A stretch of 25,652 nucleotides of DNA from a virus. Shown piece by piece: positions 1-14,367 of the stretch; position 1 is the stretch's first letter, and each line of letters starts with the position of its first letter. Below the pieces are notes generated by a model that saw only the letters and a program-made list of their open reading frames with translations, ran no database searches and was not told where the DNA came from. The translations under genes and the position numbers were made by a program. The stretch lies in the IMG/VR virus record IMGVR_UViG_3300012929_000042, positions 1 to 25,652 of that record, one strand, 5' to 3'.

Positions 1-252
1 CATCAATTCCCATACAAGGTTTTCTGGCTCGTCGCATACCGAGTCCGCGTATTCTTTGGCCAATCTCATCAGCCGTTTATAATCTTTGGTTGCCGATACA
101 AGCCCCTCTCCAAAGCTCCATTCGTTGTCTTCGGCACTTAGACAGCACGTGATTTTGCTCCTGACGTCAATAGCAGCATTGCAAAGAGATTCGATCAAGG
201 CAATAAACCTTGCCTCCCCTCCGCCCTTATTCCTAAGTTCTTCTACGTTCAT
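1..252 (-). CDS. Hypothetical protein, 3' end beyond window
   Basis: The frame is open from an ATG at 252 to the left edge (84 codons visible), so the C-terminus is missing. Its ATG overlaps the TGA of the upstream glycosyltransferase gene as ATGA, the coupling used throughout this strand, which supports both the gene and its start. The visible product is acidic and soluble-looking, begins MNVEELRNKGGGEARFIALI, and has two adjacent cysteines near residue 40. I recognise no family. It is the last visible member of the glycosyltransferase array. Confidence 0.7.
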   Translation of the reverse strand, partial: MNVEELRNKGGGEARFIALIESLCNAAIDVRSKITCCLSAEDNEWSFGEGLVSATKDYKRLMRLAKEYADSVCDEPENLVWELM

Positions 253-1121
253 AACTCCAACCCGTAACTGTTCAGCCCATCCGCCAGCCTCGGATTCTCG
301 GCTAGCAGTCGCTTCACCCCTGCCATCTGCCAGGGCCGCGCGTCCACGTGGAGGTGCTCCATCAGGTCCACGTAGGGTGCCCACCAAGATTCGGGAACGC
401 GGCTCATGAGGCCGAGGCCTTCGACGGTCGGATCGTACATCGCGTTGATCTGTGCGGCCGTCATGCGATTCGGCCAGCGCTTGCGCTCGGTGAGCTTATA
501 GAGGAACTGCTTCCACTTCAGCCGCTGCTCGCTCACCATTTGAAAGTGCATCAGCCCACCCGTGCGATTCCCTGGCGATAGCGGAGCGCAAGGCACGAAT
601 CCGCGCCCCATCGGATGCCGGTGGTGATGGTCGTAGCCCTCACGCGCCTTCCAGCAGTACGCGGGCTCGTCGCGGAACGCCGTGCTGACATCTTGCGTGC
701 CCCACAGGCCGTCGATGTGAACGGTGTAGATGGAGCCTCGAAGCTGGAGCCATGGCAACTGGAGTATCGCGCCGGGCGGAATATTCTCGACCCATGCGCG
801 AATCTTCGGGAGCAGGTTGCCAGATAAAACCTCGTCATCATCGATTGTCACGATGTGCGTGGCATCGAGCATCCGCGCCGCGTCAAGCAACCGCTGCCGA
901 TGCGCCATCTCGGCCCAAGTCGGCAACCCGTCGTACAGATAACTGACGCGCTCTTCGCCGTATTCGATCGCCAGAGCGATGCAAATGTTCGGTGTCGCGT
1001 CCGTGCTGCAATGGTCAAGGATTATCAGATGGTCCACCCACATGAGCAGCGCCCGCGCAGAGAGCCCCAATATCCAAGCGGAATTGCGACACGGCATGAT
1101 GGCGATTATGCGGGAGGTCAT
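249..1121 (-). CDS. GT2-like glycosyltransferase (GT-A fold)
   Basis: The 290-residue product resembles family 2 glycosyltransferases of the Glyco_tranf_2_4 kind. The N-terminus RIIAIMPCRNSAWIL is the usual first strand and nucleotide-binding loop. It is followed by HLIILDHCSTDAT, the typical 'D.S.D.T' segment, and near residue 95 by THIVTIDDDEVL, whose DDDE is the DXD-type metal/nucleotide-sugar site. A His-rich stretch (YDHHHRHPMG) and a Trp-rich C-terminus follow. No membrane segment is visible, so it is probably cytoplasmic. Its ATG overlaps the upstream stop by one base (TGATG) and its stop overlaps the next start (ATGA). Donor sugar and acceptor cannot be read from sequence. It is one of four such transferases in the array. 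Confidence 0.8.
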   Translation of the reverse strand: MTSRIIAIMPCRNSAWILGLSARALLMWVDHLIILDHCSTDATPNICIALAIEYGEERVSYLYDGLPTWAEMAHRQRLLDAARMLDATHIVTIDDDEVLSGNLLPKIRAWVENIPPGAILQLPWLQLRGSIYTVHIDGLWGTQDVSTAFRDEPAYCWKAREGYDHHHRHPMGRGFVPCAPLSPGNRTGGLMHFQMVSEQRLKWKQFLYKLTERKRWPNRMTAAQINAMYDPTVEGLGLMSRVPESWWAPYVDLMEHLHVDARPWQMAGVKRLLAENPRLADGLNSYGLEL

Positions 1122-1495
1122 CAGTCCCGTTGCTCCAATTCGTAGATGATTCTCAGCAGCCGATCGATTATGTCAGCAGCCGCCCCTTCGAGGCAGTCCG
1201 ATCCTGCTATGGAGTGAAGCCTGAGGTTTTTGCTAACGCTTTCCGACCGCCTTAAGAATTGCTGCGAGGATTCTTGCGCCTCTGCGGCCCATTTCGCGCC
1301 CTGCCATTCCCCACACCATTCCTTAGCAGTCACATCCGGCCACTCCGTTTCCGGTCCAAGATCCGAACTGCCGGTTACAGTTGGCGGATGCGCCCTGCAC
1401 TTGCCGAACACTCCACCGCCCTGCTCTGTGGGATTGTCGGCCTTGAAGAATCGGCAGTTTTCGCAGGATTCGAGTACTGGAGTTGAGCTACTCAT
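1121..1495 (-). CDS. Small Cys-rich protein, probable metal-binding N-terminus
   Basis: The product has 124 residues. The first 65 hold a four-cysteine pattern: CENCRFFK, then GKCRAHPP, then WPDVTAKEWCGEW. This CxxC...C...C layout with flanking aromatic residues and PP recurs in small phage and bacterial proteins that probably bind zinc or an Fe-S centre. The C-terminal half is helical and charged and ends in LLRIIYELEQRD. The stop shares a base with the glycosyltransferase start, and the start lies inside the end of the upstream gene (8-base overlap). Metal binding is inferred from cysteine spacing. No function is known. Confidence 0.72.
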   Translation of the reverse strand: MSSSTPVLESCENCRFFKADNPTEQGGGVFGKCRAHPPTVTGSSDLGPETEWPDVTAKEWCGEWQGAKWAAEAQESSQQFLRRSESVSKNLRLHSIAGSDCLEGAAADIIDRLLRIIYELEQRD

Positions 1496-1670
1496 AATCC
1501 ACCGGAATCGCTAGAATCGGGCCGACGACCATAATGTCCCTGTGCCTCGTCTCGACCCTTCCAGGCAATCTCCATTCGCGTTTGGCCTCATTCCAGAATC
1601 CCACAATCCATCGAGGCATTCCTTCATCGGGCTTCACGAGACGCAAGCAATACCAGCCACATTTTCTCAC
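1488..1670 (-). CDS. Small Trp-rich hypothetical protein
   Basis: A 60-residue product beginning MRKCGWYCLRLVKPDEGMPR, followed by alternating aromatic and basic residues and a closing VVGPILAIPVDYE. The pattern of an aromatic GWY start, W at regular spacing and a final '.I..I.P' resembles the small protein encoded near 11247-11435 (GFYWIKF...WIIAEW...IGERIELP). The two look like distant paralogues of a short beta-rich phage family. The ATG overlaps the upstream stop as ATGA. Function unknown. Confidence 0.6.
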   Translation of the reverse strand: MRKCGWYCLRLVKPDEGMPRWIVGFWNEAKREWRLPGRVETRHRDIMVVGPILAIPVDYE

Positions 1671-1882
1671 CAGCAGACCTCCGAATCGGGCATCGTAATC
1701 ATGACGGTCCAGATGAGACTTTCGCCCTCATGGCCAGCCTTAGCGTCGTAGCCGGTAGCCAAGTAAAACTGACTGGCCGCCAAATTGGCCGTCGCGCGAG
1801 AGCCGAAAATGGCCTTCATTTGAATGACTCCTGGCGTAATATCCATATTCACGTAGAGCCCTCCGCGCCACTCCAAATTCAA
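1667..1882 (-). CDS. Hypothetical protein with unclear start
   Basis: The C-terminal 50 residues (from MKAIFGSRATANLAASQFYL) end in PDSEVCW, and the stop overlaps the next ATG as ATGA. The start is uncertain. The TTG at 1882 is the outermost standard start. A GTG at 1846 lies 6 bases after GGAGGG, and the ATG at 1819 lies 8 bases after AGGAG. Coding-like codons continue upstream to about 1942 (LIPLFKAHKPEGWIDFRDRE) but without ATG, GTG or TTG, so a CTG start at 1942 or a lost start codon is possible. No family recognised. Confidence 0.5.
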   Translation of the reverse strand: MNLEWRGGLYVNMDITPGVIQMKAIFGSRATANLAASQFYLATGYDAKAGHEGESLIWTVMITMPDSEVCW

Positions 1883-1947
1883 CTCCCTATCACGAAAATC
1901 TATCCAGCCTTCTGGCTTGTGCGCCTTAAAAAGCGGAATCAGGTTCT

Positions 1948-2043
1948 CTAATCCTGCAAGAAGCTACTCTTGCTTCGCAGCCAGTGATCAGTGCCAGAAT
2001 GAACTCCTTGATGAAGCGATAGCTCCAGCGAATTCAAGCTCAA
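1948..2043 (-). CDS. Possible 31-residue micro-ORF
   Basis: A TTG at 2043 overlaps the TGA of the oxidoreductase gene as TTGA, an overlap type also used by the genes at 19633 and 21827. It opens 31 codons starting MSLNSLELSLHQGVHSGTDH and ending at a TAG just before the coding-like stretch of the next gene. No SD site is clear and the composition gives no family. Alternatively the segment is a decayed or frameshifted N-terminal part of the following gene. Confidence 0.3.
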   Translation of the reverse strand: MSLNSLELSLHQGVHSGTDHWLRSKSSFLQD

Positions 2044-3041
2044 CGCGTTCCATAAACCTCCTCGACCACTCTCAACACCGCTTGCGCATCCCTGATTCCG
2101 GGCTCCGGCTCTCGATCCTCGCGGATGTCGCGCAGGAATTCCGCCCACTCCGTCTCGAAGCTGTCGTCTTCGCCGAGATACTCCCAACTGGTGACCTGTG
2201 GCGGCCCCATCTGCGGCGACATCTGCGATAGCGTCAGCCGCTCAATCCCGTAGCTTCCGCCGAGGCCGTTAATTTCGAGCTTTCCGCGAGTGCCGAAGAT
2301 CTCGAAGAGGAAGGTATTGCGCCATTCGGTCCAGGAGGCGTGAAGCTGAATGGCTTTCGGCGGATCATCTTCTGTACGCATTAGCAGAAAGATATTATCC
2401 TCCACCTCTGTATTCCAAAAGCAAGTAGGTGCGGCATAAGCTTTCTTAGTTCTATTGAAGTCTCCAAGAAACCACCGACTCAGGTCAATCAAATGCACGC
2501 CCTGGTCGATCAGTTCGCCGCCGCCTGAAATCTTTGGGTCGCAGCGCCACTCCTTCTCCATTCCAAGTCGGCCGCCATGGCCGTAGACGCCTCGAATATA
2601 CATCAGGTCGCCAAGGAATGGTTGATGAAGGACAGCGAACTTATGCGCCTCGCGGATTGCCCGGTGGTAGCGGAGATTGTAGCCGACGCGGACCTTAACC
2701 TTCTGCCACGCAACATTAAAGACTTTCTGGAGGTCGTCTGCGTGTGTGGCTCCCGGCTTCTCGATGAGCACATGCTTGCCCGCTTGGGCCGCCGCGAATG
2801 CGATCTCCGGCGCTACATCCGGCGTGGTGCAGACTATCACGATGTCGATGTCCAGATCCTTGCATGCATGCCGCCAATCTGGATATATGCCAACATCGTT
2901 TACGATAGCTTGCATATGGACTGCCTTATCGACGTCCAGATCAGAGACAGCGATCAGCACCGCCGTATCGCCCAGCGCATTGGCTCTCCGCTGGCCCATG
3001 CGACCGCAGCCGATTATCGCAACGTTCGGGCGCTCTCTCAT
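2040..3041 (-). CDS. Gfo/Idh/MocA family NAD(P)-dependent oxidoreductase
   Basis: The 333-residue product has the family's normal length and order. It starts with an N-terminal Rossmann fold, NVAIIGCGRMGQRRA, the GxGxxG dinucleotide site. IDIVIVCTTPDVAPEIA and AGKHVLIEKPGAT follow, where EKP carries the lysine typical of the active site. The C-terminal domain has GGGELIDQGVHLIDLSRWFLG, whose Asp and His match the catalytic pair. Such enzymes oxidise or reduce the sugar ring of nucleotide sugars or free sugars, for example 3-keto sugar formation. The ATG overlaps the small gene upstream as ATGA. Together with the neighbouring dehydrogenase, methyltransferases and glycosyltransferases it fits sugar tailoring. 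The substrate is unknown. Confidence 0.9.
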   Translation of the reverse strand: MRERPNVAIIGCGRMGQRRANALGDTAVLIAVSDLDVDKAVHMQAIVNDVGIYPDWRHACKDLDIDIVIVCTTPDVAPEIAFAAAQAGKHVLIEKPGATHADDLQKVFNVAWQKVKVRVGYNLRYHRAIREAHKFAVLHQPFLGDLMYIRGVYGHGGRLGMEKEWRCDPKISGGGELIDQGVHLIDLSRWFLGDFNRTKKAYAAPTCFWNTEVEDNIFLLMRTEDDPPKAIQLHASWTEWRNTFLFEIFGTRGKLEINGLGGSYGIERLTLSQMSPQMGPPQVTSWEYLGEDDSFETEWAEFLRDIREDREPEPGIRDAQAVLRVVEEVYGTR

Positions 3042-3217
3042 TTGTCCAAGGCTCCAATGAAGATCCGAGCCTCTTCTCGGCGTACGGCTTTGTACATGGC
3101 CTCGGCCAGCGCCCGTGACATTTCCTCTTGCATGCGTATTTCTGACCCTAAGACCACATCGGGATCGGGATCGACTGGCACTATTTCGGTGGAATACTTC
3201 ACATCGTAGGTTTTCAC
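3038..3217 (-). CDS. Small hypothetical protein between the two dehydrogenases
   Basis: A GTG at 3217 overlaps the TGA of the short-chain dehydrogenase (GTGA) and opens 59 codons, and the stop overlaps the oxidoreductase ATG (ATGA). The product starts VKTYDVKYSTEIVPVDPDPD, followed by an amphipathic, Glu/Arg/Ala-rich helix (about residues 28-50) and ends IFIGALDK. It is acidic at the front and helical behind. Coupling at both ends is the main evidence. No family recognised; it could be a small partner of either enzyme. Confidence 0.65.
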   Translation of the reverse strand: MKTYDVKYSTEIVPVDPDPDVVLGSEIRMQEEMSRALAEAMYKAVRREEARIFIGALDK

Positions 3218-3930
3218 GGCGTCACTCTCCGCAGCGTGTACATGTCCGCTCCCTTGCTCAAATTCCGCTCCAACTCCGGCCACGGGTCCCAGACGGCAGA
3301 GATCAGCTTGCCAGTGATGGGGCGTGAGGCATCCGAGGCCAGAAATGTAACGAGTTGCGCGGCGAGGGCCGGGTCCGCAAATTCGCGCTCTTTGTTGGTG
3401 GTGATATCCGCAGCGCCAAGCCTCGTGTCCATCGCTCCCGGAGACACGCAGTTGACGCGGATGCCAAACTCGCGGCACTCCTCGGCCACCGTCTCGCTGA
3501 AGCGCACGAGCCCGCACTTGGAGGTCGCATACGCCGAGAATCCTGGCCTCGGGTTGCAGGCGCCGCCGCCGCTGATGTTGATGATGCTCCCCTTGGTTTT
3601 GGATGCCTTCATGTTTGCGACCGCGAGCGCACACAATTGCATAGGCGTGAATAGATTTACCTGGAAGCACTCGCGCCAGTCTGCCAGGGTGTTTGTCTCT
3701 GCCGGTCCCATTGGCCCGATCACTGCGGCGTTATTGACAAGAATGTCAAGCTTGCCACCAGCCCGGAACCACATGCGAGCCGGAACGGTGCTGTCAGCAA
3801 GATTGAACTCTCCACGGCTCGGTGCATAGACCTTCGCGCCGGCCGCCTCGAATGCCGCCTTGATCGCAGCGGCGAGCCCGCGGGAGGCTCCCGTCACGAT
3901 TGCCCGCTTGCCGGTTAGGTCGTAGGGCAC
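3214..3930 (-). CDS. Short-chain dehydrogenase/reductase (SDR)
   Basis: The 238-residue product is a classical SDR by size. It shows TGASRGLAAAI (cofactor loop, with GLA in place of the usual GIG), DILVNNAAVIGP (NNA motif), IINISGGG (catalytic Ser region), YATSK (catalytic Tyr and Lys) and the SPGAMDT loop. The start is a GTG at 3930, five bases after AAGGAG, overlapping the upstream gene by 16 bases. The family carries out NAD(P)-dependent alcohol/ketone interconversion, here perhaps on a sugar given the neighbours. The C-terminus ends LRRVTP. Substrate unknown. The altered GLA loop does not look disabling. Confidence 0.9.
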   Translation of the reverse strand: MPYDLTGKRAIVTGASRGLAAAIKAAFEAAGAKVYAPSRGEFNLADSTVPARMWFRAGGKLDILVNNAAVIGPMGPAETNTLADWRECFQVNLFTPMQLCALAVANMKASKTKGSIINISGGGACNPRPGFSAYATSKCGLVRFSETVAEECREFGIRVNCVSPGAMDTRLGAADITTNKEREFADPALAAQLVTFLASDASRPITGKLISAVWDPWPELERNLSKGADMYTLRRVTP

Positions 3931-4205
3931 GGCTGCTCCTTTTCGATTTGCTTGACCAACTCCATTTCCGGATGCCGCTTTCGGTAGGCAGCAATCGCTG
4001 CTATCCGTGCTCGCACCTCCGACCTGGAAGATTCAGTCCAATCGTTCTCGGCAGGGAACCACAGGTCCATCGAATGTGCCTGAATACGAAGCTTGTCAAG
4101 CAAAGCAAAATCTTCGACGGTATCGGCTCCACAGCCTTCGCCGGCAGCGGCCTGATACCAGCCGGTGAGAATGCCAATCTCTTCGGCGCTTAGGTCGTAG
4201 GTCAT
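3915..4205 (-). CDS. Hypothetical 96-residue protein
   Basis: The start at 4205 ([20 protein letters not shown]) was chosen because it overlaps the TGA of the HNH gene as ATGA. A longer frame exists but runs into that gene. The product is acidic at the front and highly charged and helical at the end ([20 protein letters not shown]). Its stop lies just after the SD of the SDR gene, so the two are probably coupled. No domain recognised. Confidence 0.7.
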
Positions 4206-4633
4206 ACAGAAAGTCTTGCCCTTCTGGCTCTCATGTAGTTGCGACTGTAGCAAGTCTGGCATTTTTGGCAGTTGCATTTCGCGGGCATAGGCCCTCTCTT
4301 TCTTGGTTTCTTATGAGAGCGTTGATTTGCCCGCTGCTCTTTATGTGTTGACCATTTACAGTTCTCTGGGGAGTACGGCCCGTTATTGTCCTTGCGGTCA
4401 AGAGTCATCCCGTCAGGACGCTCGCCCATGTCACTGACGAACGTAGCTGGATCGTTCAGCCATCTTTCGCAAACGGTTATGCCACGGGCGCCATAAAGAT
4501 AGTAATCAGAATTGCCAGGAGAGCAACATCGAGATTTCATGGCCGCCCATATATCATAAATCTTGGTTTGGCAAAGTCCGTGCCTGTACTTCGGATTGGC
4601 TGAGCCCGCGTACTGTCCTGGAGAGGCGCTCAC
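4202..4633 (-). CDS. HNH nuclease with C-terminal Cys cluster
   Basis: The 143-residue product carries the phage HNH signature [20 protein letters not shown], then ITVCERW, then [19 protein letters not shown] followed by EQRANQR. The D..N..G.Y.PENC.W block is the metal-binding and catalytic core. A basic tail holds CNCQKCQTC, a likely zinc knuckle. It is a close relative of the HNH protein at 22430-23002. Such free-standing HNH enzymes nick or cut DNA and often behave as homing elements. The gene overlaps both neighbours by four bases, so it has been built into the operon without breaking coupling. Confidence 0.85.
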
Positions 4634-5235
4634 TTTGCGATCACCGCATTTTCCTGGTTGAGGTGGACCATTTTGTAGCCGTACTTCTCGGCCACTTGCA
4701 TGACCTCCACGGCCCTGCCATTATGCTCCCAGCATATTACCCTGGGACGGTGGTCGGTTCGCAGCAGCGCTATCGTCACCTCGGTAGAGTTGCCTTCGAT
4801 ATCGATGCTGGCGAAGTCGATCTGTCTGTCGCCAAAGAACTGATCCAGTAACTTCCGCACCGTCAGCGTTGGCACCCAAAGATTGCCATAGAATCCGCCG
4901 TCTTTCTCCCAGAGCTTCAGATGCTTCGCGTCGTTTCCGCTCAGTGCGTCGTCAGTGATGCGGAACTCAGCGACGTGGCCCGGCTCTGCGGTGATGGCCG
5001 CCGCTATGACCTGCACGCGCTCGAAGATGTGGGCGTACTCGCGAATCAGCTTGCTCACGGGGATTGGCGAGAACTCGCACAGCACTGCGCTCCAGCCGGC
5101 CTCGATGAGTAGCCTAGAGTTGCTGAGGTTGATCGGCTCCCATGCACCAATTTCCAGGAGCGTGCCTTTGAAATCGGGAGGGAACTGCGCCGCTACGATA
5201 AGATCTTCGCCGTTCTGGCTTCTCGATTCGCTCAT
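4630..5235 (-). CDS. FkbM-family SAM-dependent methyltransferase
   Basis: The start at 5235 ([20 protein letters not shown]) is set by ATGA overlap with the upstream stop and gives 201 residues. Features are SQNGEDL at the front, [17 protein letters not shown] (SAM-binding motif I region), then [25 protein letters not shown] (the D.DIEG signature of FkbM enzymes) and [10 protein letters not shown]. FkbM proteins O-methylate sugars or polyketides, so this enzyme probably methylates a hydroxyl on the product of the neighbouring glycosyltransferases. No membrane segment is seen. Target inferred only from context. Confidence 0.85.
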
Positions 5236-5498
5236 TTCGAAGTCACCACCCAATAGCCTGCTGTGTTTTGGAGCCGGACATCTGTTGTGATAGAGATAAT
5301 CTGACGGGTCCTGGCGAAGTCAGCAAGCGCCTTGCCGAACTCTGACGAGCACCCGAAATAGTAAACACCGCTTCCGTAGGCATCGATTCGGCAACCGCTG
5401 TCTGGAGTAAGCCTTCCGATTGCGCCTTCCGGCGTTCTGCTGGAAAAATATATTAGGATGCCAATAATCGCCGCACATCCGAGCATCACGTATTTCAT
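5232..5498 (-). CDS. Small N-terminally anchored or secreted protein
   Basis: The start at 5498 is set by ATGA overlap with the methyltransferase upstream and gives 88 residues. MKYVMLGCAAIIGILIYFSS is a hydrophobic N-terminal segment acting as signal peptide or anchor. The rest is a small domain with two cysteines (SGCRID and YYFGCSSEF) that could form a disulphide outside the membrane. It ends in a beta-like [11 protein letters not shown]. The Cys at position 8 lacks a convincing lipobox. It is the only clearly membrane-targeted product in the glycan-modification array. Confidence 0.68.
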   Translation of the reverse strand: MKYVMLGCAAIIGILIYFSSRTPEGAIGRLTPDSGCRIDAYGSGVYYFGCSSEFGKALADFARTRQIISITTDVRLQNTAGYWVVTSK

Positions 5499-6256
5499 TC
5501 GCATCTCGACCAATAGTCCTGAAAGTCCACCATCGCCGCCTTGTGAGGCGCGAAGTCCATCGCCGGGTCGGGCGTGTGGTTTGGCGGGAACCAGCCGCGC
5601 TCTGCTTGCTCCACTAGTGGCATCGGATCGTTCATTCGCAAGGTCGCCACGTCATGCCCCCTCCAGCAGCACGCCACCCCATTGGGCGTCCAGTACACCC
5701 GGCAGCGCCAGCCGTTATCCATCAGCCAGCGAACGCCGTCGCGAATAGCCGGCCCCAGGAAGTCGTGGAACATGATGATGCAGTCCGGCTTCGCGTGAGC
5801 GTGCGCTCCCATGGCATCGTTCAGTGGCTCTGGACTATCGTGGCAGCCGTCGATTACGAAGCCGTCGTATTTGTTGGTATCGAATTCAAAGAATCGCGAT
5901 GCCGTGCAGGCGTGAATCCATATATTCCATTCAGGCCCGACATTTTCCAAGAACCGCTTGCGAAATTCGGGCTGTTTGAGCTCCGGATCAACACACCATA
6001 CGATACCATTCGTCATCCAGTTAATGTGCTTTGCGGTCCAGCCGAGGCGACATCCGATGTCAACCCATTCGGAATGGAGCGGCAGAGATCCAGCGATGGT
6101 GCAAAGAATTGCACATTCATCAACCGTCCAATAGGTGCAGTTCGGATCGAATTCCGGATCGCTCGGCGCATCGTAGCCGCAGTGCTGCTTTGGCGGGTCG
6201 AGGAGTTTGAAGTAGGGGCGCAAGTCTGGAGCCGACAGATTGCTTTTGTAGATCAT
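5495..6256 (-). CDS. Class I SAM methyltransferase (Methyltransf_24-like)
   Basis: The 253-residue product has EWVDIGCRLGWTAKHI as SAM-binding motif I, IVWCVDPELKQP as motif II with the acidic residue that holds the ribose, YDGFVIDGCHDSPEPLNDAM, and CIIMFHDFLGPAIRDGVRWL. This ID..H....D....G....HD pattern is typical of Methyltransf_24 enzymes found with glycosyltransferases. The N-terminus IYKSNLSAPDLRP is repeated at the front of the next gene upstream. The ATG overlaps that gene's TGA (ATGA). Acceptor unknown. Confidence 0.78.
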   Translation of the reverse strand: MIYKSNLSAPDLRPYFKLLDPPKQHCGYDAPSDPEFDPNCTYWTVDECAILCTIAGSLPLHSEWVDIGCRLGWTAKHINWMTNGIVWCVDPELKQPEFRKRFLENVGPEWNIWIHACTASRFFEFDTNKYDGFVIDGCHDSPEPLNDAMGAHAHAKPDCIIMFHDFLGPAIRDGVRWLMDNGWRCRVYWTPNGVACCWRGHDVATLRMNDPMPLVEQAERGWFPPNHTPDPAMDFAPHKAAMVDFQDYWSRCE

Positions 6257-6498
6257 ATCAGGTTTACATAAAACCGAACTTCGAATTCTTTTAGTTCGGC
6301 TTTGATTGAAGAGTGGTTTTCTCTCAGCCAGTTAGTGAGTTGCGCGCTTGTATCGAAATACTCTATGATCAGTTGCCAGCTAACACATACTGGGCCACGA
6401 TCCATAACGCGCTCGAAAATCTCCCACATGAACGCCTTTATCTCTTGATGACTGGGGCGCAAGTCAGGGGCGCGGAGGTTGCTTTGGTAGATGGCCAT
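6253..6498 (-). CDS. Hypothetical protein sharing the N-terminus of its neighbour
   Basis: An 81-residue product. Its first 15 residues, MAIYQSNLRAPDLRP, match the start of the following methyltransferase (IYKSNLSAPDLRP) in protein and closely in DNA, after which the two proteins are unrelated. The remainder is a mixed helical domain (SHQEIKAFMWEIFERVMD, later LTNWLREN) ending FEVRFYVNLI. The ATG lies just after the stop of the upstream gene and the stop overlaps the next start (ATGA). Function unknown. Confidence 0.7.
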   Translation of the reverse strand: MAIYQSNLRAPDLRPSHQEIKAFMWEIFERVMDRGPVCVSWQLIIEYFDTSAQLTNWLRENHSSIKAELKEFEVRFYVNLI

Positions 6499-6499
6499 T

Positions 6500-6688
6500 T
6501 TAATCGCTCGTGACGATCATTCTGTACTCTGCATAGCCGTCGCGAATTGTGTAGGAAGAAAAGACAGCATGCACGGTAATGTTATTTATCGAAAGCCGCA
6601 CCGCTCTCGGAACATCCCCTTTCGACAACTCGGACTCCAAACGTGAGTCTTTAGTCATAATCACCACCTCTTGGCGTCTGCTGGTCAT
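6500..6688 (-). CDS. Small hypothetical protein
   Basis: A 62-residue product. The ATG at 6688 overlaps the glycosyltransferase stop (ATGA), so this start is preferred over the internal ATG at residue 11. The beginning is charged (MTSRRQEVVIMTKDSRLESE) and the end is beta-like (YTIRDGYAEYRMIVTSD). No motif or family recognised. Confidence 0.58.
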   Translation of the reverse strand: MTSRRQEVVIMTKDSRLESELSKGDVPRAVRLSINNITVHAVFSSYTIRDGYAEYRMIVTSD

Positions 6689-7485
6689 ACGTTTCTGAAC
6701 CTACTCCCTTTCCCGTCGTCTCTGCCGCTCGCTCCGACTTGCAGGAATAATTGCTGATACCAATCGTCAGTCCCGTGCGCTGCCAACTCCGCGTTGCCAA
6801 ATTGGCACGCCTCGCGGTAGAGGTGATAGCCGTACTTATGCGCCAATAGGCTGAGGATCGCTTGCTCCGTGCGGTGCTGTTCGAAGCCTTTCAGTTCCTT
6901 GCCATTGCAAATCACGCTCGGGCCAAAGGTGGTGGCGAGTGGATTTAGGCAGTAGCTCAACCACTCCATGAGAAACTGCTGAACATGCCAATGGCCTTTT
7001 TGAAACAGCATAAACCTTGCAACGGCGTGCTGGGAGTCGGGCAGCACGGGATGCCTGTTGGGCGGCAAATATCCTTCGGCCGCCATCGTCACCCAGCAAT
7101 CAGCCTTCACCCACTGGCGATTACTGCACCCCTGTGCCGCGAAGAGCATCTGCCCACCGTCCTGCGCGCAGCGTTCGTACAGCGGAGAGAGGTCGGCAAT
7201 GGGGTAGCAATCACCATCGAGGTAGCATACAACATCGCCCTTTGCCGTTCCCTGGTTCTGTAGGGCATCTAGGATTACCAGCGGCTTCCAGGCGAACCAG
7301 CAGAGGCCGCGGACGCCAGGAAGCTCGAACAGCCAGCGGTTGAGTTCGTAGAAGGGGTGCGCCTTGAGGAATACATCATCGTAAACGAGCACCTGATCGA
7401 CACCGAACTTCGCGGCATCGCGCACGGTGATGGCAGTGGTGGCTTCGTAAGCGCTTCCGCCGAAGGTAATAAGGAAACGAGTCAT
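6685..7485 (-). CDS. Glycosyltransferase-like protein (DXD type)
   Basis: The start at 7485 (MTRFLITFGGSAYEATTAIT) is set by ATGA overlap and gives 266 residues. The product has a GT-A-like layout. WFAWKPLVILDAL precedes GDVVCYLDGDCYP, where DGD is the DXD metal site. EQHRTEQAILSLLAHKYGYH is the late acidic/helical segment common in transferases that use UDP- or GDP-sugars. It has no membrane segment. It differs from the GT2-type proteins in the array, so it probably adds a different sugar. Donor and acceptor unknown. Confidence 0.75.
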   Translation of the reverse strand: MTRFLITFGGSAYEATTAITVRDAAKFGVDQVLVYDDVFLKAHPFYELNRWLFELPGVRGLCWFAWKPLVILDALQNQGTAKGDVVCYLDGDCYPIADLSPLYERCAQDGGQMLFAAQGCSNRQWVKADCWVTMAAEGYLPPNRHPVLPDSQHAVARFMLFQKGHWHVQQFLMEWLSYCLNPLATTFGPSVICNGKELKGFEQHRTEQAILSLLAHKYGYHLYREACQFGNAELAAHGTDDWYQQLFLQVGASGRDDGKGSRFRNV

Positions 7486-7976
7486 GCGCACTCCAGTTTC
7501 AGGCGTGGCAATGAATCAAAGAACCGCATGCCCGCTGCCGTCAAGCGCACCGTAATCCATCGTTCGCTGTAGAGATACATGTAATATTGGACCAGTTCGA
7601 AATATCCAGCCACGATGGCGGCCTGGGCTGCGGCGATGTCTTTGTACCAGCGATACGTGATCTCTGCACCGATACCCTTGCCATCCAAAAGAACGCAGCC
7701 GTCATAGCGCGGATACGCCAGGGACTCTATTGGGGACGGCTCCGCTTTCGCACGGTCATTTGCCCACCAAAGCACGCCAGTCGGAGTTACCTCATATTTT
7801 AGATCGCCAAGCTCGCGAAGTCTGCCGTCGTCCACAAGCGGCTTTAGCCAATCCACATACCAACCCCTGCGCTTGCGCCAGTCCTTGACATCTGACACGG
7901 TGCCCATGCCGTTCATGAAGCATTCAATAACCCACCAGTCCGGCGCTGGCGTCGTGGCCTCTTCTTTTCTGGTCAT
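7482..7976 (-). CDS. Hypothetical protein with two winged-helix-like halves
   Basis: A 164-residue product with ATGA overlap at both ends. Two segments look alike: WLKPLVDDGRLRELGDLKYEVTPTGVLWW and, near the end, a YFELVQYY segment running into WITVRLTAAGMRFFDSL. Both have a helix, a short turn and a beta strand leading to 'T..G', as in winged-helix domains. This suggests an internal duplication and possible DNA or protein binding. This is inference from pattern only. Confidence 0.62.
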   Translation of the reverse strand: MTRKEEATTPAPDWWVIECFMNGMGTVSDVKDWRKRRGWYVDWLKPLVDDGRLRELGDLKYEVTPTGVLWWANDRAKAEPSPIESLAYPRYDGCVLLDGKGIGAEITYRWYKDIAAAQAAIVAGYFELVQYYMYLYSERWITVRLTAAGMRFFDSLPRLKLECA

Positions 7977-8350
7977 AGCGACTCGCTCCCCGGAAGCCCC
8001 AGCCGCTCTACAAAATCATGCGCGGCATGGTAGCAGTCCATCACATCGGATATTCGCCGGTCAATTGCATCGCGCTTTTCTGGAATGGTCGTCGCGTCAA
8101 GCTCGGCCAGCAGCGCTTTGGTCTTTGGCGCAAAGACTTCCCGCCACAGCAGATCGTCAGACATGTTCATTTTGGTCTTCCTAAAGAACCGACTATCCAG
8201 CGCCTCGTTGGGACAGCCAGGAAGTGGAACGCCGTCCTTAGTGCCAGCCTCAGCATTGCATCGCGGGCAATGCAGCCTAGCTACCGAGCCCAGGGCGACA
8301 AGGTCTTCGCGGTCGCCTTCCCACCCACAATGCAGACACCTTAGTTTCAT
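7973..8350 (-). CDS. Zinc-ribbon hypothetical protein
   Basis: The start at 8350 (MKLRCLHCGWEGDREDLVAL) is set by ATGA overlap and gives 125 residues. CLHCGW, then LHCPRCNAEAG form a CxxC...CxxC zinc ribbon, followed by GCPNEALDSRFFRK and a helical half with EKRDAIDRRISDVMDCYHAA. It ends LPGSESL, whose codons hold the GGGGAG SD of the next gene. The role may be a small nucleic-acid or protein binder, and the family is not known to me. Confidence 0.7.
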   Translation of the reverse strand: MKLRCLHCGWEGDREDLVALGSVARLHCPRCNAEAGTKDGVPLPGCPNEALDSRFFRKTKMNMSDDLLWREVFAPKTKALLAELDATTIPEKRDAIDRRISDVMDCYHAAHDFVERLGLPGSESL

Positions 8351-8553
8351 AGCGGTGCACTCCCTGGAATCACATCGCCTTGCTGCGGCCACATCATCTC
8401 GTCTCCATAATCGCGGTTAACCTCTATTTGCGAGATCTGATTACCGCGAGCCGCAGCCATCCGCGCCTGCGGCTCATTATCAAAGAGGCCTACAATTGAC
8501 CAGCCTGTTTCTGCCCAGTTCGGCTGAAGGCTTCCGACTATCCACAGTTTCAT
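8347..8553 (-). CDS. Small hypothetical protein
   Basis: The start at 8553 (MKLWIVGSLQPNWAETGWSI) is set by ATGA overlap and gives 68 residues. It has the look of short phage proteins with an 'LWIVG' first strand, a 'VGLFDNEPQA' turn and an alanine-rich helix. It ends IPGSAPL, where the AGGGAG in the codons serves as SD for the next gene. No known function. Confidence 0.68.
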   Translation of the reverse strand: MKLWIVGSLQPNWAETGWSIVGLFDNEPQARMAAARGNQISQIEVNRDYGDEMMWPQQGDVIPGSAPL

Positions 8554-9317
8554 AAAGGCTCCGATCCCGGAAAACCAGCAGCCTTTCGCGCCCTGAACAG
8601 CGGCTCGAACTTGTGGTAATCCGCTGTCGCTCCTGCCAAGTGCGGAGCCCACTGGCCAGTAGTGCGCACGCAGTGGTTGTGGTAGTGCGTGAGATCGCGG
8701 CGCTGCCAGAAGCAGCCGTACTTGATTGCCACGTTCTGAAGCTCCTCATCAACCCAGTTGTGGAAGTACTCTGGCCAAAGCGGGCCGTTGCCTTGGTTGA
8801 TGCGTTCGCAGAAGGATCGCCCCATCCACGGAGAGCCGCAGATCCTGTCAATCATGGCTGGCGCGTCGGGCCACATCTGTCGCGCATATGGCTCCTCTTC
8901 GCCCCAACGGTCGCCGGTCGGCTGCATGACACCGAAGGTAGTCCAATCTCCCGGTTTGGATAGCCGCTTACCTCCGAAGTGCTCGCTGCACTGCGCCGCG
9001 ATTTCATCAGCCGTGTGGTTGGGGTCGGGGAAAACATCGTCGCCGCCAGTGACAATCCAATCGCACTTCGGATCTTCATGCAGCACTTGGCGCACGAGCG
9101 TGTTGACGGCTTGCGCATAGCCGGGGTAGCGGCCGGGCAGGGCAGGAACGTGCATCAAATCCACCGCCCCTACTCCGTGATCGCCAAACGCCCATGCAGG
9201 CACGTCCTGTGCATCAACCATGATGATGGTGTTGTAGCCGCGCTCTTTCCACTTGCGCAGACACGCCACGGCCTCAGCAGGCGGGCGCTTCGATGGAACT
9301 GCAAACCATACGCTCAT
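8550..9317 (-). CDS. Glycosyltransferase-like protein (GT-A fold)
   Basis: A 255-residue product. MSVWFAVPSKRPPAEAVACL begins the nucleotide-sugar fold. YNTIIMVDAQDVPAWA follows, then CDWIVTGGDDVFPDPNHTAD, where GGDDVFPD is a DXD-like metal site. A Trp/His-rich C-terminus holds WVDEELQNVAIKYG and HYHNHCVRTTGQWAPH. The position of DD and the later histidines matches GT-A enzymes, but the exact family is unclear. ATGA overlaps occur at both ends. Soluble, third of the transferases in the array. Substrates unknown. Confidence 0.72.
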   Translation of the reverse strand: MSVWFAVPSKRPPAEAVACLRKWKERGYNTIIMVDAQDVPAWAFGDHGVGAVDLMHVPALPGRYPGYAQAVNTLVRQVLHEDPKCDWIVTGGDDVFPDPNHTADEIAAQCSEHFGGKRLSKPGDWTTFGVMQPTGDRWGEEEPYARQMWPDAPAMIDRICGSPWMGRSFCERINQGNGPLWPEYFHNWVDEELQNVAIKYGCFWQRRDLTHYHNHCVRTTGQWAPHLAGATADYHKFEPLFRARKAAGFPGSEPL

Positions 9318-9859
9318 CTTCCACCTCCCAGTAGCCGCTTCACCTTGGCGATGTCGCCCTCGTCAATCGTGGCTGCCTCCGTCGCGAACTCGAAGACGCC
9401 ACGCTCGATGGCGGCTCCGAATCGTGTGATGTTGAACACGAGCGCGATCTCCGCGCTGCCATGCGCGAGAATCATCCCGCGGCGCTGGGCGTCGAACGTC
9501 AGGGTAGCGCAGTGCTTCGCCAGCACCTCCAGCATGGACTTGATGATGTCCTCCACCTGGGCGTGGTCGATAGGGCGAATCATGTTGGGCTGGAGCACCG
9601 GGTCGGCTTCGAAGATGCCTTTGTCGTACTTCGTGCCGACTTGAGCGATCCGCTTCAACAGCCCAACCACTTTGTACCTCCCGCCAACAGCCTTCGAGCG
9701 GTCAGCCGCCATCAGCAGCATCGCCCGTTGCTCGTGGCGGTAGAATAGCTCAGCCTCGAAGCGCCGGAGCACCGCGTGGAGGTCTTGCAGGATGTCGCGG
9801 GCAAGCTCCAGGTCTTGGCCGAGCAGCATATTCGGGCGGAAGAGATTGGGCTCAGGCAC
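9314..9859 (-). CDS. Hypothetical protein
   Basis: I place the start at GTG 9859 (reading MPEPNLFRPNMLLGQDLELA) because GGGGA lies eight bases upstream and the overlap with the upstream stop is only 8 bases. The frame is open for 37 more codons. The 181-residue product is helical with many Leu/Arg (LARDILQDLHAVLRRFEAEL), two internal 'NM' turns and a basic end VKRLLGGGR. No family recognised. The ATGCCTGAGCC-type start sequence is shared with the glycosyltransferase at 10807. Confidence 0.65.
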   Translation of the reverse strand: MPEPNLFRPNMLLGQDLELARDILQDLHAVLRRFEAELFYRHEQRAMLLMAADRSKAVGGRYKVVGLLKRIAQVGTKYDKGIFEADPVLQPNMIRPIDHAQVEDIIKSMLEVLAKHCATLTFDAQRRGMILAHGSAEIALVFNITRFGAAIERGVFEFATEAATIDEGDIAKVKRLLGGGR

Positions 9860-10028
9860 GTGGACGATCCCCGAGACGTCGCATAAACTGGTCAGCCACG
9901 ACGAAGCAGCCGTCCACAGTCGCGTCTCGATTGCGAAAATAGATAACCAGTGCCAAGATCGTTCTGACATATGGGTAGAGGTCCTCAGCGAATTGCTTGC
10001 CGGTTGCCATCTCTGCTTCGGTTTTCAT
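9852..10028 (-). CDS. Small hypothetical protein
   Basis: The ATG at 10028 overlaps the TGA of the glycosyltransferase gene (ATGA) and opens 58 codons (MKTEAEMATGKQFAEDLYPY to LGDRPRA). A hydrophobic stretch VRTILALVIYF may be a buried helix but is too short to call a membrane segment. Coupling at both ends is the main support. Confidence 0.62.
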   Translation of the reverse strand: MKTEAEMATGKQFAEDLYPYVRTILALVIYFRNRDATVDGCFVVADQFMRRLGDRPRA

Positions 10029-10807
10029 AGCTTCATAGTCTCCCGACAGTACGAGTCCCACTCCAGTGCCCGCTTCCACTCCTGCTTCCCTGGCGCGATG
10101 TGGTCGCCCGTGTTGCCGCCATGGATGCCTGCGATCATGCGAGGCGACTCACCAAAATCATCACGGCAAGATAGCGGCCAGCCAGGGCGCGGCCCATCTG
10201 GAATGCTGCTCACAGCTTTGACGCTGAGACCCGCCACGAAGTGCAGATCCTCGCCGCGCTTGACGTCAGTCCTGAACGGCTTCCGCTCCCACGTCCTGCG
10301 CCAATAGCACAGCGAGGTGCCGAGGATCTCGCCAGTGTAGAGCCACGCTTCGCCAACAGGCTCGTCAGCGCGATGAGAGCGCAGGACGCCACTCTCCAAG
10401 CGCATCAGCCCCGCGTTCTGGTCCCAGAAGAGCATCTGATTGTAGCCCACGCAGTCCGCGCCGGAGGCTTGCAGCAGGGCGACTTGCTCGGCCAGGCGGT
10501 TGGGATGCGACCAGTCGTCGTCATCGAAGTGGCAAAGAATATCGGGAGGCGCAGGGAGGCCGCGAGCCATCTCAACGGCCCACTCATTTGCAGAGTTTCG
10601 CTGTTGGCCGATGGTCTCTTCTGGATGGCTTCCGTGAACATGCCGTTCCATTTTGCCAGTAGCAATGTAAATCCATGGCTCGGTGGTGTCCCAGATCACC
10701 AACTCTTTGCGCTCGTAAGTCTGCCGCCGAAAGCCCTCTACGGCGCGCGCAGCCATCTGGGCGCGATCCTTGGTGAGCATAACACATGCCACTGTTGGCT
10801 CAGGCAT
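10025..10807 (-). CDS. Family 2 glycosyltransferase
   Basis: Start at ATG 10807 (MPEPTVACVMLTKDRAQMAA), overlapping the upstream stop by 8 bases, gives 260 residues. The layout is typical of GT2: ACVMLTKDR, then the RRQTYERKELVIWD segment, GQQRNSANEW, and ILCHFDDDDWSHPNRL, with DDDD as the DXD metal/UDP site. GEDLHFVAGL is in the position of the catalytic acidic loop. No membrane helix is seen. It is the most typical glycosyltransferase of the cluster. Its donor and acceptor remain unknown. Confidence 0.88.
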   Translation of the reverse strand: MPEPTVACVMLTKDRAQMAARAVEGFRRQTYERKELVIWDTTEPWIYIATGKMERHVHGSHPEETIGQQRNSANEWAVEMARGLPAPPDILCHFDDDDWSHPNRLAEQVALLQASGADCVGYNQMLFWDQNAGLMRLESGVLRSHRADEPVGEAWLYTGEILGTSLCYWRRTWERKPFRTDVKRGEDLHFVAGLSVKAVSSIPDGPRPGWPLSCRDDFGESPRMIAGIHGGNTGDHIAPGKQEWKRALEWDSYCRETMKL

Positions 10808-11243
10808 ACGTGCGGTGCTCCTTCTTGTGGCAACGATCACATAGCCACTCTAAATCGAGCCTTTTTGCATAATCACTGTGATGGGCATGTGTTTTGGGGT
10901 CGCCACAACATTGGCACTGCATTCGCTGTAAAGTACCCCTCCGCAGGGCGTACGCTACGGCGTTATGGGCCGCCTTCTTATGCGGGTTCCTTTGTGACCA
11001 CGCTTTTATCGTTTCGTATGAAGTCTTTGACTTAGGTCGTTTTCCATCAGAAACATACTTTTGTAACCTGATGGCCCGACATCTAATGCATGGACTGCAT
11101 GGCTTACCCCGACAGCCGACCTGAAATTCTTCTGGCCCCTTGTCTTGTCCGCAGTCATAACAATGCACAAAACCGACAGGTGGACGGACGCGAGGCCCGG
11201 ATCTATGCGTCTTGATCGCGCAGACTGCCGGCTCATTTGCCAT
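10800..11243 (-). CDS. HNH-type nuclease with N-terminal zinc ribbon
   Basis: A 147-residue product. The N-terminal part has HCYDCGQDKGPEEF and CSPCIRCRAIRLQKY, a zinc-ribbon pattern. The C-terminus has CQCCGDPKTHAHHSDYAKRL and WLCDRCHKKEH, the Cys/His-rich HNH core seen in phage HNH proteins. The start at 11243 lies 10 bases after GAGGAG. The stop overlaps the glycosyltransferase start by 8 bases. It differs in type from the HNH genes at 4202 and 22430. Confidence 0.75.
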   Translation of the reverse strand: MANEPAVCAIKTHRSGPRVRPPVGFVHCYDCGQDKGPEEFQVGCRGKPCSPCIRCRAIRLQKYVSDGKRPKSKTSYETIKAWSQRNPHKKAAHNAVAYALRRGTLQRMQCQCCGDPKTHAHHSDYAKRLDLEWLCDRCHKKEHRTYA

Positions 11244-11578: not shown

Positions 11579-11741
11579 CGGTGCGCTCCTTCTCCAATTC
11601 CGCTTCGATCCGCTCCATGCTGATGACCCGCAGCCAGATGGTCAGCGGCATCCCGCGCTGTTTGGCGATACGCTTCGCCACCTTGAAATCGTGATGGTGG
11701 AAGCGGACGTATGCGCCGGGCTCTTTCTTGTCAGGCTTCAC
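11568..11741 (-). CDS. Small protein, possibly ribbon-helix-helix-like
   Basis: A GTG at 11741 overlaps the TGA of the RNA ligase gene (GTGA) and opens 57 codons. The product starts VKPDKKEPGAYVRFHHHDFK, with a short strand YVRF, then helix KVAKRIAKQRG, a turn and helix LTIWLRVISMERIEAELEKE. A strand followed by two helices at this size resembles ribbon-helix-helix DNA-binding proteins. The assignment rests on shape only. Confidence 0.6.
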   Translation of the reverse strand: MKPDKKEPGAYVRFHHHDFKVAKRIAKQRGMPLTIWLRVISMERIEAELEKERTDGK

Positions 11742-12400
11742 CGCTTGCCTGCCTGGAAGTCTTTGGTCTTGAGCTTTATTATCAGACGCTCGCCACGACG
11801 GTCAAAAAGCGTCTCGATTGGACGGGCAACGATGCCTTCTGCCATACTTGTCCCGATCTTCGACGCGAACGGAACGCGAACAAGCTCGACAATCTCAGGC
11901 AGCGACATGCGCCCAAGATATGGCACGAGATCGCAGCCTAGCTTTCCAGCCACGTCCTCAAGTGCCGCCTTGTCCAACCACCATTTACCAGCCACCAGAA
12001 CATCGAATAGAATGAATCCCTTGTCAGGCCGGTACGTTCCGCCCTTCTGAATTCCTGCCCCGTACCCTTCGCCATAGAGCACTGCAGATACAGGCCCGTT
12101 CGCAAAGAAAGCAGATTGCATTTTCGGGATCGTGAATTGCTGCATGAGCTTCACCACAAGATCGGCTGGCATCTGGGCATTATTCGAGCGCCCCCCGAAT
12201 GTCACATTGCCTTGCTCAGAGAGCATCACACGAACATTCGTGCCGTCGATCTTTTCCGTAACGTCCCAAACACTAATCGTGCCAATGACGGGGCTTTTGA
12301 GCCTTGCCTCGTTTACGCGGAAATCCTCGCTACGCTCGAAGATGGTGTCGATTTTGTGATATTCGGCAAATCCCTCTATCGAAGTTTGAAACAGTGCCAT
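11738..12400 (-). CDS. RNA ligase (T4 Rnl2-like nucleotidyltransferase)
   Basis: With the ATG at 12400 the product has 220 residues. It shows the ligase motif I as TEKIDGTN with the AMP-accepting Lys at about residue 50, motif III near LYGEGYG (108-114), motif IIIa as GFILFDV (128-134), motif IV as AEGIVARP (187-194) and motif V as LIIKLKTKDF with two Lys (209 and 211). This is the adenylation domain of the RNA_ligase family, which seals nicks in RNA. No C-terminal extension is present. Phages use such enzymes to repair tRNAs cut by host defence, usually with a kinase-phosphatase, which is not seen here. It follows the terminase by 43 bases and has its own predicted promoter. Confidence 0.88.
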   Translation of the reverse strand: MALFQTSIEGFAEYHKIDTIFERSEDFRVNEARLKSPVIGTISVWDVTEKIDGTNVRVMLSEQGNVTFGGRSNNAQMPADLVVKLMQQFTIPKMQSAFFANGPVSAVLYGEGYGAGIQKGGTYRPDKGFILFDVLVAGKWWLDKAALEDVAGKLGCDLVPYLGRMSLPEIVELVRVPFASKIGTSMAEGIVARPIETLFDRRGERLIIKLKTKDFQAGKR

Positions 12401-12407
12401 GCGTGAA

Positions 12408-12436
12408 ATGCTAGCACCATCTCGCACCGAACGCAA
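12408..12436 (-). promoter_or_regulatory. Predicted promoter of the RNA ligase gene, leaderless
   Basis: In the short gap after the terminase, read on the minus strand, TTGCGT (12431-12436) and TAGCAT (12408-12413) are separated by 17 bases. The -10 box ends seven bases before the ATG, so the transcript would start at or next to the start codon, and no SD site is present. This would drive the RNA ligase and the glycosyltransferase array apart from the terminases. Confidence 0.5.
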
Positions 12437-12443
12437 GCCAGCC

Positions 12444-13850
12444 TCAGTACTGCCCGATCTGGTAGCTGCCTGCGGGGTTGAGGATATGCGTTTCCTGCTT
12501 CGGTACCAGCCTTGCCCATGCCATGATGAGGGATTCCGCCCTGTCTGGTGACGACCCGCCCCTTGCCCTGAGTTCGTCCTTGTGCTCGATTTCAATTTGG
12601 CCACCCGGCAATTCGCGGTAGCGGATGTCAGTCAACTGAGCGCGCGTGTCTTCATCTTCCACGCCAAGCACGTGCCCGTCCCGCATGCACTCCCGCAACC
12701 ACCAGTAGGCTTCCGCCTTCGCATTTCGGAACATCACGCTATCAATTGGCGCAGCTCCAGCGATGAACGCTCTCACGTCATAGCCCTTGTGCGCGATGCC
12801 GCGCATGAAATGATAGCCAATGCCCACAGTGTCACCGAGCACAACGACAGACGCTCCAGGAAATCGGTTATGCAGTTCGCTCAGGAACAGATGAACTTCC
12901 TCAAGCGGGTCGGCCTTCATCCACGAGTCGCGGAGCACCACGTACGGGCCGAGGCGTGCGGTCGCTGTCGTTTCATCCGCGCCAGGGCCTGCAACGTCGA
13001 CGCCCACCTGAATGTACATGCCGGGACGGAAGTACGGCTGGAGGTCCTTCTTCTCGTATGGCAGGCCGGCCGCTTCCACCCATTCCAACCTGAACACCGC
13101 ATTGTCAGCCTGCGTTGGAAACTCGCCCAGCACACGCGACATGAAGCGGGGATTGTTCGGACCCCACTTGTAGTACATCTCGCGCACCCAGCGGCGGCGC
13201 GTCAGATGCGGGAACGGTGCGTAGTCAAGTTCGCTGTCAGGTAGCTGTAGCAGCGATTCCATCGTGAGCCCCGCAAGGTTGGGGGTGTCGAATGCTGAGA
13301 TCGTGAGGCAGTATGTTGAGCCACGAAGCTTCGTGAAATCCTCATATGGCGCACCGCTTGGCACGGTCGGGTTGCACATCTTGACAATGCGCACATCGCC
13401 CGCGGCGCGTATGCCTTCGATAGCTTCCCAGACGTCGGCAGATACGCCAATAGCTTCATCCACAATAATCAGCACGCGCTTACCGTGATAGCCCTGTGCG
13501 TTGACACCCTTAGCTGAAGAGAATCCGATGGCCTTGCACTTCTCGCTCAGTGCCCAGCCGGTCGCCGTGCGGTCAGGAACGCACATTGGCAACGCCTGGA
13601 TCGCCGCCTCAATCTCAGACCAGAGATTCTTGACCTGGCGCAGCGTGGGCGCTGTCGTAATGACGATGGTCTCTTCCTGCGTGATGAGTTCGTAGGGCAC
13701 CATGCCGGCGACACAGAAGCTCTTGCCGGATCCATGGCAGCCCTTGACAGAAACGCTGCGATGCGTGGCGATTGCGCGACACAGTTCCTGCTGTTTACTC
13801 CAGAGTTTGCGGCGCAGGAATTGGCGCTGAAAGGTTTCCGGCGAGATCAC
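12444..13850 (-). CDS. terL: Terminase large subunit
   Basis: The 468-residue product is the DNA-packaging motor. The N-terminal ATPase has Walker A GCHGSGKS (37-44) and Walker B VLIIVDEA (126-133, Asp131-Glu132), with APTLRQVKNLW between them. The C-terminal RNase H-like nuclease has VGVDVAGPGADET (Asp285), VVVLGDTVGIG (Asp340) and GGSSPDRAESLIMAW (Asp436), the three acidic residues expected. It translocates and cuts concatemeric DNA into proheads with the small subunit. The ATG overlaps the small terminase stop as ATGA. Unusually, no portal gene follows; RNA ligase and sugar enzymes do. Confidence 0.95.
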   Translation of the reverse strand: MISPETFQRQFLRRKLWSKQQELCRAIATHRSVSVKGCHGSGKSFCVAGMVPYELITQEETIVITTAPTLRQVKNLWSEIEAAIQALPMCVPDRTATGWALSEKCKAIGFSSAKGVNAQGYHGKRVLIIVDEAIGVSADVWEAIEGIRAAGDVRIVKMCNPTVPSGAPYEDFTKLRGSTYCLTISAFDTPNLAGLTMESLLQLPDSELDYAPFPHLTRRRWVREMYYKWGPNNPRFMSRVLGEFPTQADNAVFRLEWVEAAGLPYEKKDLQPYFRPGMYIQVGVDVAGPGADETTATARLGPYVVLRDSWMKADPLEEVHLFLSELHNRFPGASVVVLGDTVGIGYHFMRGIAHKGYDVRAFIAGAAPIDSVMFRNAKAEAYWWLRECMRDGHVLGVEDEDTRAQLTDIRYRELPGGQIEIEHKDELRARGGSSPDRAESLIMAWARLVPKQETHILNPAGSYQIGQY

Positions 13851-14284: not shown

Positions 14285-14293
14285 CCGCCACCG

Positions 14294-14299
14294 ATTGTA
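14294..14299 (-). promoter_or_regulatory. -10-like box upstream of the small terminase
   Basis: TACAAT on the minus strand ends nine bases before the ATG at 14284. There is no good -35 at 17 bases. A perfect TTGACA lies at 14334-14339, but with a 34-base gap it cannot pair with this box. If active it would give a leader of about three bases. Confidence 0.3.
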
Positions 14300-14367
14300 G
14301 CGCAACGGGTGCGGGCTATGCGCGGCGGGAATCTGTCAAGTGCCATTTGGCGTACGGATTGAACGGG

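Follow-up and report, generated by a model that had tools for sequence, protein, structure and literature searches.

The DNA analysed here (hereafter the window) is a virus record of 25.7 kb, IMGVR_UViG_3300012929_000042, itself a fragment, whose minus strand carries an array of glycan-related genes at positions 249–10840. The array is a run of about 20 genes downstream of the genes for the small terminase subunit, the large terminase subunit (TerL) and RNA ligase, all on the same strand. An earlier note, made from the letters alone, had placed here four glycosyltransferase (GT)-like genes, FkbM and Methyltransf_24 methyltransferases, a short-chain dehydrogenase/reductase (SDR) and a Gfo/Idh/MocA oxidoreductase, nearly all joined by 4-base overlaps. 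Each of these genes was recovered at about the position given, two of the glycosyltransferases by Pfam and two by AlphaFold, and 13 of the 19 junctions between the first transferase (GT-a) and the last (GT-d) are exact 4-base overlaps (ATGA or GTGA) with the next frame. The list was incomplete: a number of small genes also belong to the array, as do two genes for HNH endonucleases (4202–4633 and 10800–11243).

Two of the glycosyltransferases, GT-a (10025–10840; 28.0 bits) and GT-d (249–1121; 23.9 bits), matched the family-2 profile Glycos_transf_2 of Pfam above its cut-off of 23.3 bits. GT-b (8550–9317) and GT-c (6685–7485) had no Pfam glycosyltransferase match and were recognised as GT-A-fold enzymes by AlphaFold prediction, fold comparison and residue conservation. 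The GT-b model (mean predicted local distance difference test score, pLDDT, 93) was closest to GalNAc-T2 (Z 15.4, root-mean-square deviation, rmsd, 3.4 over 213 residues), and the GT-c model (pLDDT 87) was closest to GT6 enzymes (Z 12.9, rmsd 3.3 over 195 residues) and is GT6/GT8-like. Structural (VIA) matches of GT-b also included the lipopolysaccharide (LPS) fucosyltransferase WrtF and the wall teichoic acid enzyme TarP, and its Foldseek list contained a capsid glycosyltransferase of PBCV-1 (E 4.8e-5). Acidic motifs were invariant in the alignments: DDDD in GT-a (D106, D108 and D109 kept in 79 of 79 sequences), GDD in GT-b (D93 and D94, 87 of 87) and DxDE in GT-d (D94, D96 and E97, 96 of 96). 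The DGD motif of GT-c kept Asp90, numbered from the Met at 7485, in 72 of 72, a loose count because this alignment merges at least two subfamilies, which share roughly 50% and 20% identity with the protein of the window. Pfam (GT-a and GT-d), the predicted folds (GT-b and GT-c) and the invariant Asp motifs thus place all four among GT-A enzymes. No long hydrophobic or membrane segment was found in GT-a, GT-b or GT-c, nor in 92 of 99 GT-d sequences. Profile searches of PDB sequences with the GT-b, GT-d and Methyltransf_24 alignments returned nothing useful, and only the folds were informative. Among 50,697 phage records, no match was found to GT-a, to GT-b (tblastn) or to the Methyltransf_24 enzyme, and GT-c and GT-d matched only a few phages, namely marine phages and one uncultured jumbo phage.

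The two methyltransferases lie in the middle of the array, the Methyltransf_24-type enzyme at 5495–6256 (30.1 bits, cut-off 26.3; blastp relatives at 36–37%) and the FkbM-type enzyme at 4630–5235 (PF05050, 25.4 bits, cut-off 22.7), with one small gene between them. Further towards GT-d are the SDR (3214–3930; adh_short, 123.6 bits) and the Gfo/Idh/MocA oxidoreductase (2040–3041; Pfam, 66.8 and 68.9 bits). Both exceeded their Pfam cut-offs and carry active-site motifs that could be read from the sequence (YxxxK in the SDR, EKP in the oxidoreductase). PDB relatives of the latter include glucose-fructose oxidoreductase and inositol dehydrogenases. The glycine motif of the SDR reads TGASRGLA in the window and TGASRGLG in the sister contig described below; this one-base difference at position 3872 (TGxxxGxG to TGxxxGxA) may be strain variation or an assembly error.

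The sister contig, IMGVR_UViG_3300015264_000040, matches window positions 2447–23850 at 99.99% identity (3 mismatches in 21.4 kb) and runs 8 kb past window base 1. There, about 60 bp past window base 1 and adjoining GT-d, the portal (locus L015, 5750–7951; phrog_10963, E 1.6e-54) is encoded as the next large gene, and a homologue of the head maturation protease lies further downstream. The structural gene that the earlier note had suggested seeking outside the window is therefore present, and because this near-identical contig places the portal immediately outside the window, the array is an insert between terminase and portal. The position had been described as unusual because portal and capsid genes would normally follow the terminase; it is indeed unusual, but the portal is not missing and stands directly next to the array. 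Terminase and portal lie 10–57 bp apart in LuckyBarnes, Montesquieu, Amigo and Jojan60, four of the closest cultured relatives, and in Methanoculleus virus L4768 two small genes separate them. LuckyBarnes (Brevibacterium), Montesquieu (Glutamicibacter) and Amigo (Arthrobacter), the nearest cultured relatives by portal and TerL (25–32% identity), share the downstream head order of the window phage, but their terminase adjoins the portal and they have no array. Inserts between terminase and portal are not new in themselves: Quhwah and Hendrix, which infect Microbacterium, have them (PMC7302621).

Searching viral contigs with GT-b, portal, GT-d and TerL yielded 221 loci in 117 non-redundant groups, across which the array recurred as a cassette of conserved order: GT-a, GT-b, variable methyltransferases and GT-c, GT-d, portal. 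GT-a lies ahead of GT-b in 69 of 70 loci, and GT-b is always ahead of GT-d (78 of 78); the distance from GT-d to the portal downstream of it never exceeds 5 kb (53 of 53). Where at least 6 kb precede the portal, a glycosyltransferase is present there in 45 of 46 loci. Fifteen groups have both a window-type TerL and portal, and in 14 of these the gap between them (4.7–13.0 kb) holds a full or partial cassette. A single locus (L163, 1184–9984) has the cassette upstream of TerL; here 17 bp lie between TerL and portal, an arrangement like that of the cultured phages. Over 85 cassettes, GT-d occurs in 85, GT-b in 80, GT-a in 71, GT-c in 66, FkbM in 54 and Methyltransf_24 in 25. Other cargo identified by Pfam includes GDP-mannose 4,6-dehydratase, epimerases, a DegT aminotransferase, a TylF methyltransferase and a polysaccharide pyruvyl transferase; rare cargo includes a Mom-family gene in one cassette, DNA methylase genes in two and further single genes. 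The SDR–Gfo pair directly ahead of GT-d is also present in the closest relative, L129. Relatives with few canonical glycosyltransferases hold other glycan genes between GT-a and the portal (L132, 7738–8325; L110, 4301–7053), one of which resembles an alpha-1,2-fucosyltransferase by eye. The site from GT-a to the portal thus looks like a hotspot for such genes. No description of this cassette was found in the literature searched, most subscription papers being outside our reach.

The window contains no tRNA gene and the record is a fragment, so the host evidence consists of five genome matches. A genome scan located the cassette in a prophage of Acidobacteriaceae bacterium KBS 96, where it lies at about 152–155 kb on scaffold KB906767, and in a Candidatus Sulfotelmatobacter metagenome-assembled genome (MAG), and more distant GT-b relatives in three Planctomycetota MAGs. 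The carriers form a large, mostly uncultured phage group, with hosts so far mainly among soil Acidobacteria. In the KBS 96 prophage, the cassette follows the major capsid gene and the head genes are of another type (TerL phrog_9, portal phrog_12, capsid phrog_10). This head type occurs in 32 groups, with the cassette before the connector in 19 (and in a further three in which only the capsid was seen) and after it in 10. The GT-d tree has 51 members of type I and 28 of type K, and the head-type label requires at least seven changes on it, which indicates that cassette and head type have repeatedly recombined. The only abundant non-cassette families common to both head types are a neck protein and the major tail protein (phrog_158). 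A cluster labelled 'PGM', considered as a phosphatase, was rejected and proved to be mostly a Mu-F-like minor head protein.

These observations led us to suspect that the cassette is expressed late, is exchangeable between phages and builds a modified oligosaccharide on virion proteins, a reading to which we assign a probability of about 0.6 and in which both the substrate and the sugar are predicted. Four glycosyltransferase families in a fixed order, encoded on the same strand as the head operon and adjoining the portal or major capsid gene in two head types, are consistent with this function. The cassette enzymes would be made late, in the cytoplasm, alongside the structural proteins. One conserved transferase, for which GT-b with its GalNAc-T-like fold is the candidate, would attach the first sugar to Ser or Thr of an abundant virion protein, either the capsid or the major tail protein, which the two head types can have in common. 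The remaining transferases would lengthen the glycan, and the FkbM and Methyltransf_24 enzymes would O-methylate it; in the window phage, the SDR and Gfo pair may supply a keto-, deoxy- or epimerised sugar donor. The finished glycan would cover the particle, and it would differ among phages because members of the cassette are exchanged.

A glycan array in a head operon is not without precedent. The mycobacteriophage Corndog (cluster O) has three glycosyltransferase genes and one for an O-methyltransferase in the interval from portal to protease (PMC4351075), and a later paper (PMC12363180, citing Freeman 2023) reports that Corndog gp38 and Che8 gp110 are essential for capsid glycosylation and that the system glycosylates capsid and tail tube proteins. 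As in Corndog (gp35–gp38) and Che8, several glycosyltransferase genes together with O-methyltransferase genes lie inside the late structural operon here (PMC4351075). The Corndog genes stand between portal and protease, however, whereas the present cassette, a longer one found in several head types, stands between terminase and portal and includes sugar oxidoreductases; in addition, the hosts of Corndog and Che8 are actinobacterial. The PBCV-1 glycosyltransferases (2p6w, 2p72 and 2p73; VIA match to GT-c at Z 12.6) are likewise virus-encoded cytosolic GT-A enzymes that decorate a capsid, although PBCV-1 is a large DNA virus of eukaryotes and the identity is about 11%. To our knowledge, the PBCV-1 genes are not arranged as a head-operon cassette.

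Several points weigh against virion glycosylation. The location of the cassette in the head operon is a correlation only. The fold of GT-b does not fix its acceptor because GalNAc-T2 scores within 1 Z of an LPS fucosyltransferase and of heparosan synthase, and homology to proven virion-glycosylating enzymes is unsupported because GT-a and GT-b found no BLAST match among the phage records. Tail genes common to both head types can also be ordinary mosaicism. A similarly placed glycosyltransferase has moreover been read differently: in the uncultured 'Gratiaviridae' gut phages, it lies in the head operon between portal and capsid genes and is interpreted as modifying the host capsule, although it is a single glycosyltransferase accompanied by a HipA kinase and an ATPase (PMC8008677).

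That interpretation favours the alternative that the cytoplasmic transferases modify a lipid-linked or LPS sugar, so that the host surface is changed late in infection or in the lysogen, superinfection by sister phages is blocked and progeny are not trapped on debris. Cytosolic GT-A enzymes build surface glycans too, as the matches of GT-b to WrtF and TarP illustrate, and the KBS 96 prophage separately carries a putative OafA-like acyltransferase (L233, 8643–9707, by sequence inspection). The missing membrane segments of GT-a, GT-b, GT-c and nearly all GT-d proteins argue against this alternative, as does the Pfam cargo, which contained no flippase, polymerase or GtrA-like protein; a gtr-type serotype conversion cassette would have the membrane flippase GtrA and a membrane-anchored GtrB/Gtr. 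The cassette also tracks structural genes into different head types and does not sit beside lysogenic-conversion genes. We therefore regard a change of the host surface as unlikely, though still a serious competitor. The earlier note had offered it alongside virion decoration and DNA hypermodification; of these three uses virion decoration is now the best supported and DNA hypermodification the least.

In hypermodification, the enzymes would glycosylate or methylate phage bases against restriction. Base glycosylation does occur in phages, and the Mom-family gene and DNA methylases among the rare cargo point the same way. However, the relative G003, which is probably a complete genome because it has a 127-bp terminal repeat, contains among its 22 Pfam families one cytosine DNA methylase and no thymidylate-synthase-like hydroxymethylase or other base-hydroxylating enzyme, a search that covered G003, the window phage being a fragment. 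Base glucosyltransferases would also not be expected in a fixed order with sugar methyltransferases in a head operon. Given the Pfam content of G003, this use is very improbable. Hardly credible at all is the view that the genes share no function, being either bacterial cargo (morons) or the product of a chimeric assembly. The SDR, Gfo and FkbM families are common in bacteria, and the HNH genes indicate that the region takes up inserts. Two independent contigs agree in this region, however, gene order is kept across the 117 groups, the run SDR–Gfo–GT-d recurs in L129, and a full-length GT-b was found in one of 396 genomes of the phylum of KBS 96, where it lies within the KBS 96 prophage. The near-identical second contig and the synteny therefore rule out the chimera or bacterial island that the earlier note had named as a possible refutation.

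The kind of function proposed is known, and the lineage, the gene set and the mobility between head types appear to be new. Phages known to glycosylate their virions are a handful of mycobacteriophages. Interest there lay in how the glycan affects animal antibodies, which cannot account for its selection in soil. Soil and sediment phages that share a conserved and exchangeable cassette form a large clade and offer a natural system in which to ask what particle glycans are for (e.g., stability, adsorption, or escape from surface or secreted binding proteins), and the question is open to testing because KBS 96, whose prophage carries the cassette, is a cultured isolate with a sequenced genome. 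More tentatively, and with the odds somewhat against it, the cassette may be for phages what an O-antigen or capsule locus is for bacteria, with GT-a, GT-b and GT-d as a fixed frame around a rapidly exchanged middle and a separate glycan type for each phage. Such a unit would move between unrelated heads, and the surface chemistry of soil Acidobacteria phages would evolve independently of capsid lineage.

The remaining genes of the region frame or link those described above. Upstream lie the small terminase subunit (13847–14305; phrog_4044, E 1.5e-20), TerL (12444–13850; phrog_2, E 6.9e-24; relatives at 55–100%), which forms the upstream boundary of the array, and an RNA ligase between TerL and the array (11738–12604; PF09414, 65.2 bits), whose listed start overlaps TerL and whose true start is probably further in. 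The HNH-type endonuclease gene at 10800–11243 (phrog_2340, E 1.9e-19) is probably an insert; that at 4202–4633 (phrog_3377, E 1.1e-37) lies within the array. Five HNH-endonuclease-like genes occur in 25 kb, the other three at 18204–18482, 19706–20236 and 22430–23002.

GT-a is followed by a 58-amino-acid open reading frame (ORF) that overlaps it by 4 bases (9852–10028) and by a protein without a convincing Pfam or PHROG family (9314–9859 as judged by overlap; listed ORF start 9970). Between GT-b and GT-c are coupled ORFs of 68 (8347–8553), 125 (7973–8350) and 164 amino acids (7482–7976), the second with a zinc-ribbon-like CxxC...CxxC N-terminus and the third without an assigned function. Small coupled ORFs also lie at 5232–5498, with a hydrophobic N-terminus, and at 3915–4205, with no assigned function. 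A 59-amino-acid ORF (3038–3217) links the SDR to the Gfo gene by 4-base overlaps, a 124-amino-acid ORF (1121–1495) meets GT-d in a 1-base TGATG overlap, and a small ORF that begins in the window (1–252) and is coupled to GT-d precedes the portal, which lies beyond the window. Weak Pfam matches to MreB, DUF1249 and UPF0029 (E > 0.01) were taken as chance.

Three successive proteins in 7973–9317 end in PGSEPL, PGSAPL or PGSESL. A shared signal was considered and rejected; the likeness would be explained by an embedded ribosome-binding site (GGAG/GAG-like), which sits before the overlapping ATGA at each junction. The 81-amino-acid ORF at 6253–6498 begins with residues that repeat the N-terminus of the next gene, the methyltransferase at 5495–6256 (direct repeat D2; 39 nt, 79%), and the same arrangement occurs at a second, unrelated pair of cassette genes (L023, 6210–6791 and 6788–7642). 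Such repeats are possible footprints of gene insertion or replacement via short homology. The final 100 or so bases of the window (25555–25652) differ from the sister contig, with which the preceding sequence agrees, probably either an artefact of the assembly end or a real variant. A histidine-phosphatase-like gene, which could encode a sugar-phosphate phosphatase, follows soon after the portal in L021 (16094–16735; His_Phos_1, Pfam) and L018 (5238–5882, by eye) and was not seen in the window phage. Past window base 1, between portal and protease, are two proteins of about 525 amino acids with signal-peptide-like starts (L015, 1063–2640 and 2637–4220), one of them weakly BamB/PQQ-like; secreted-looking products are odd for a head operon.

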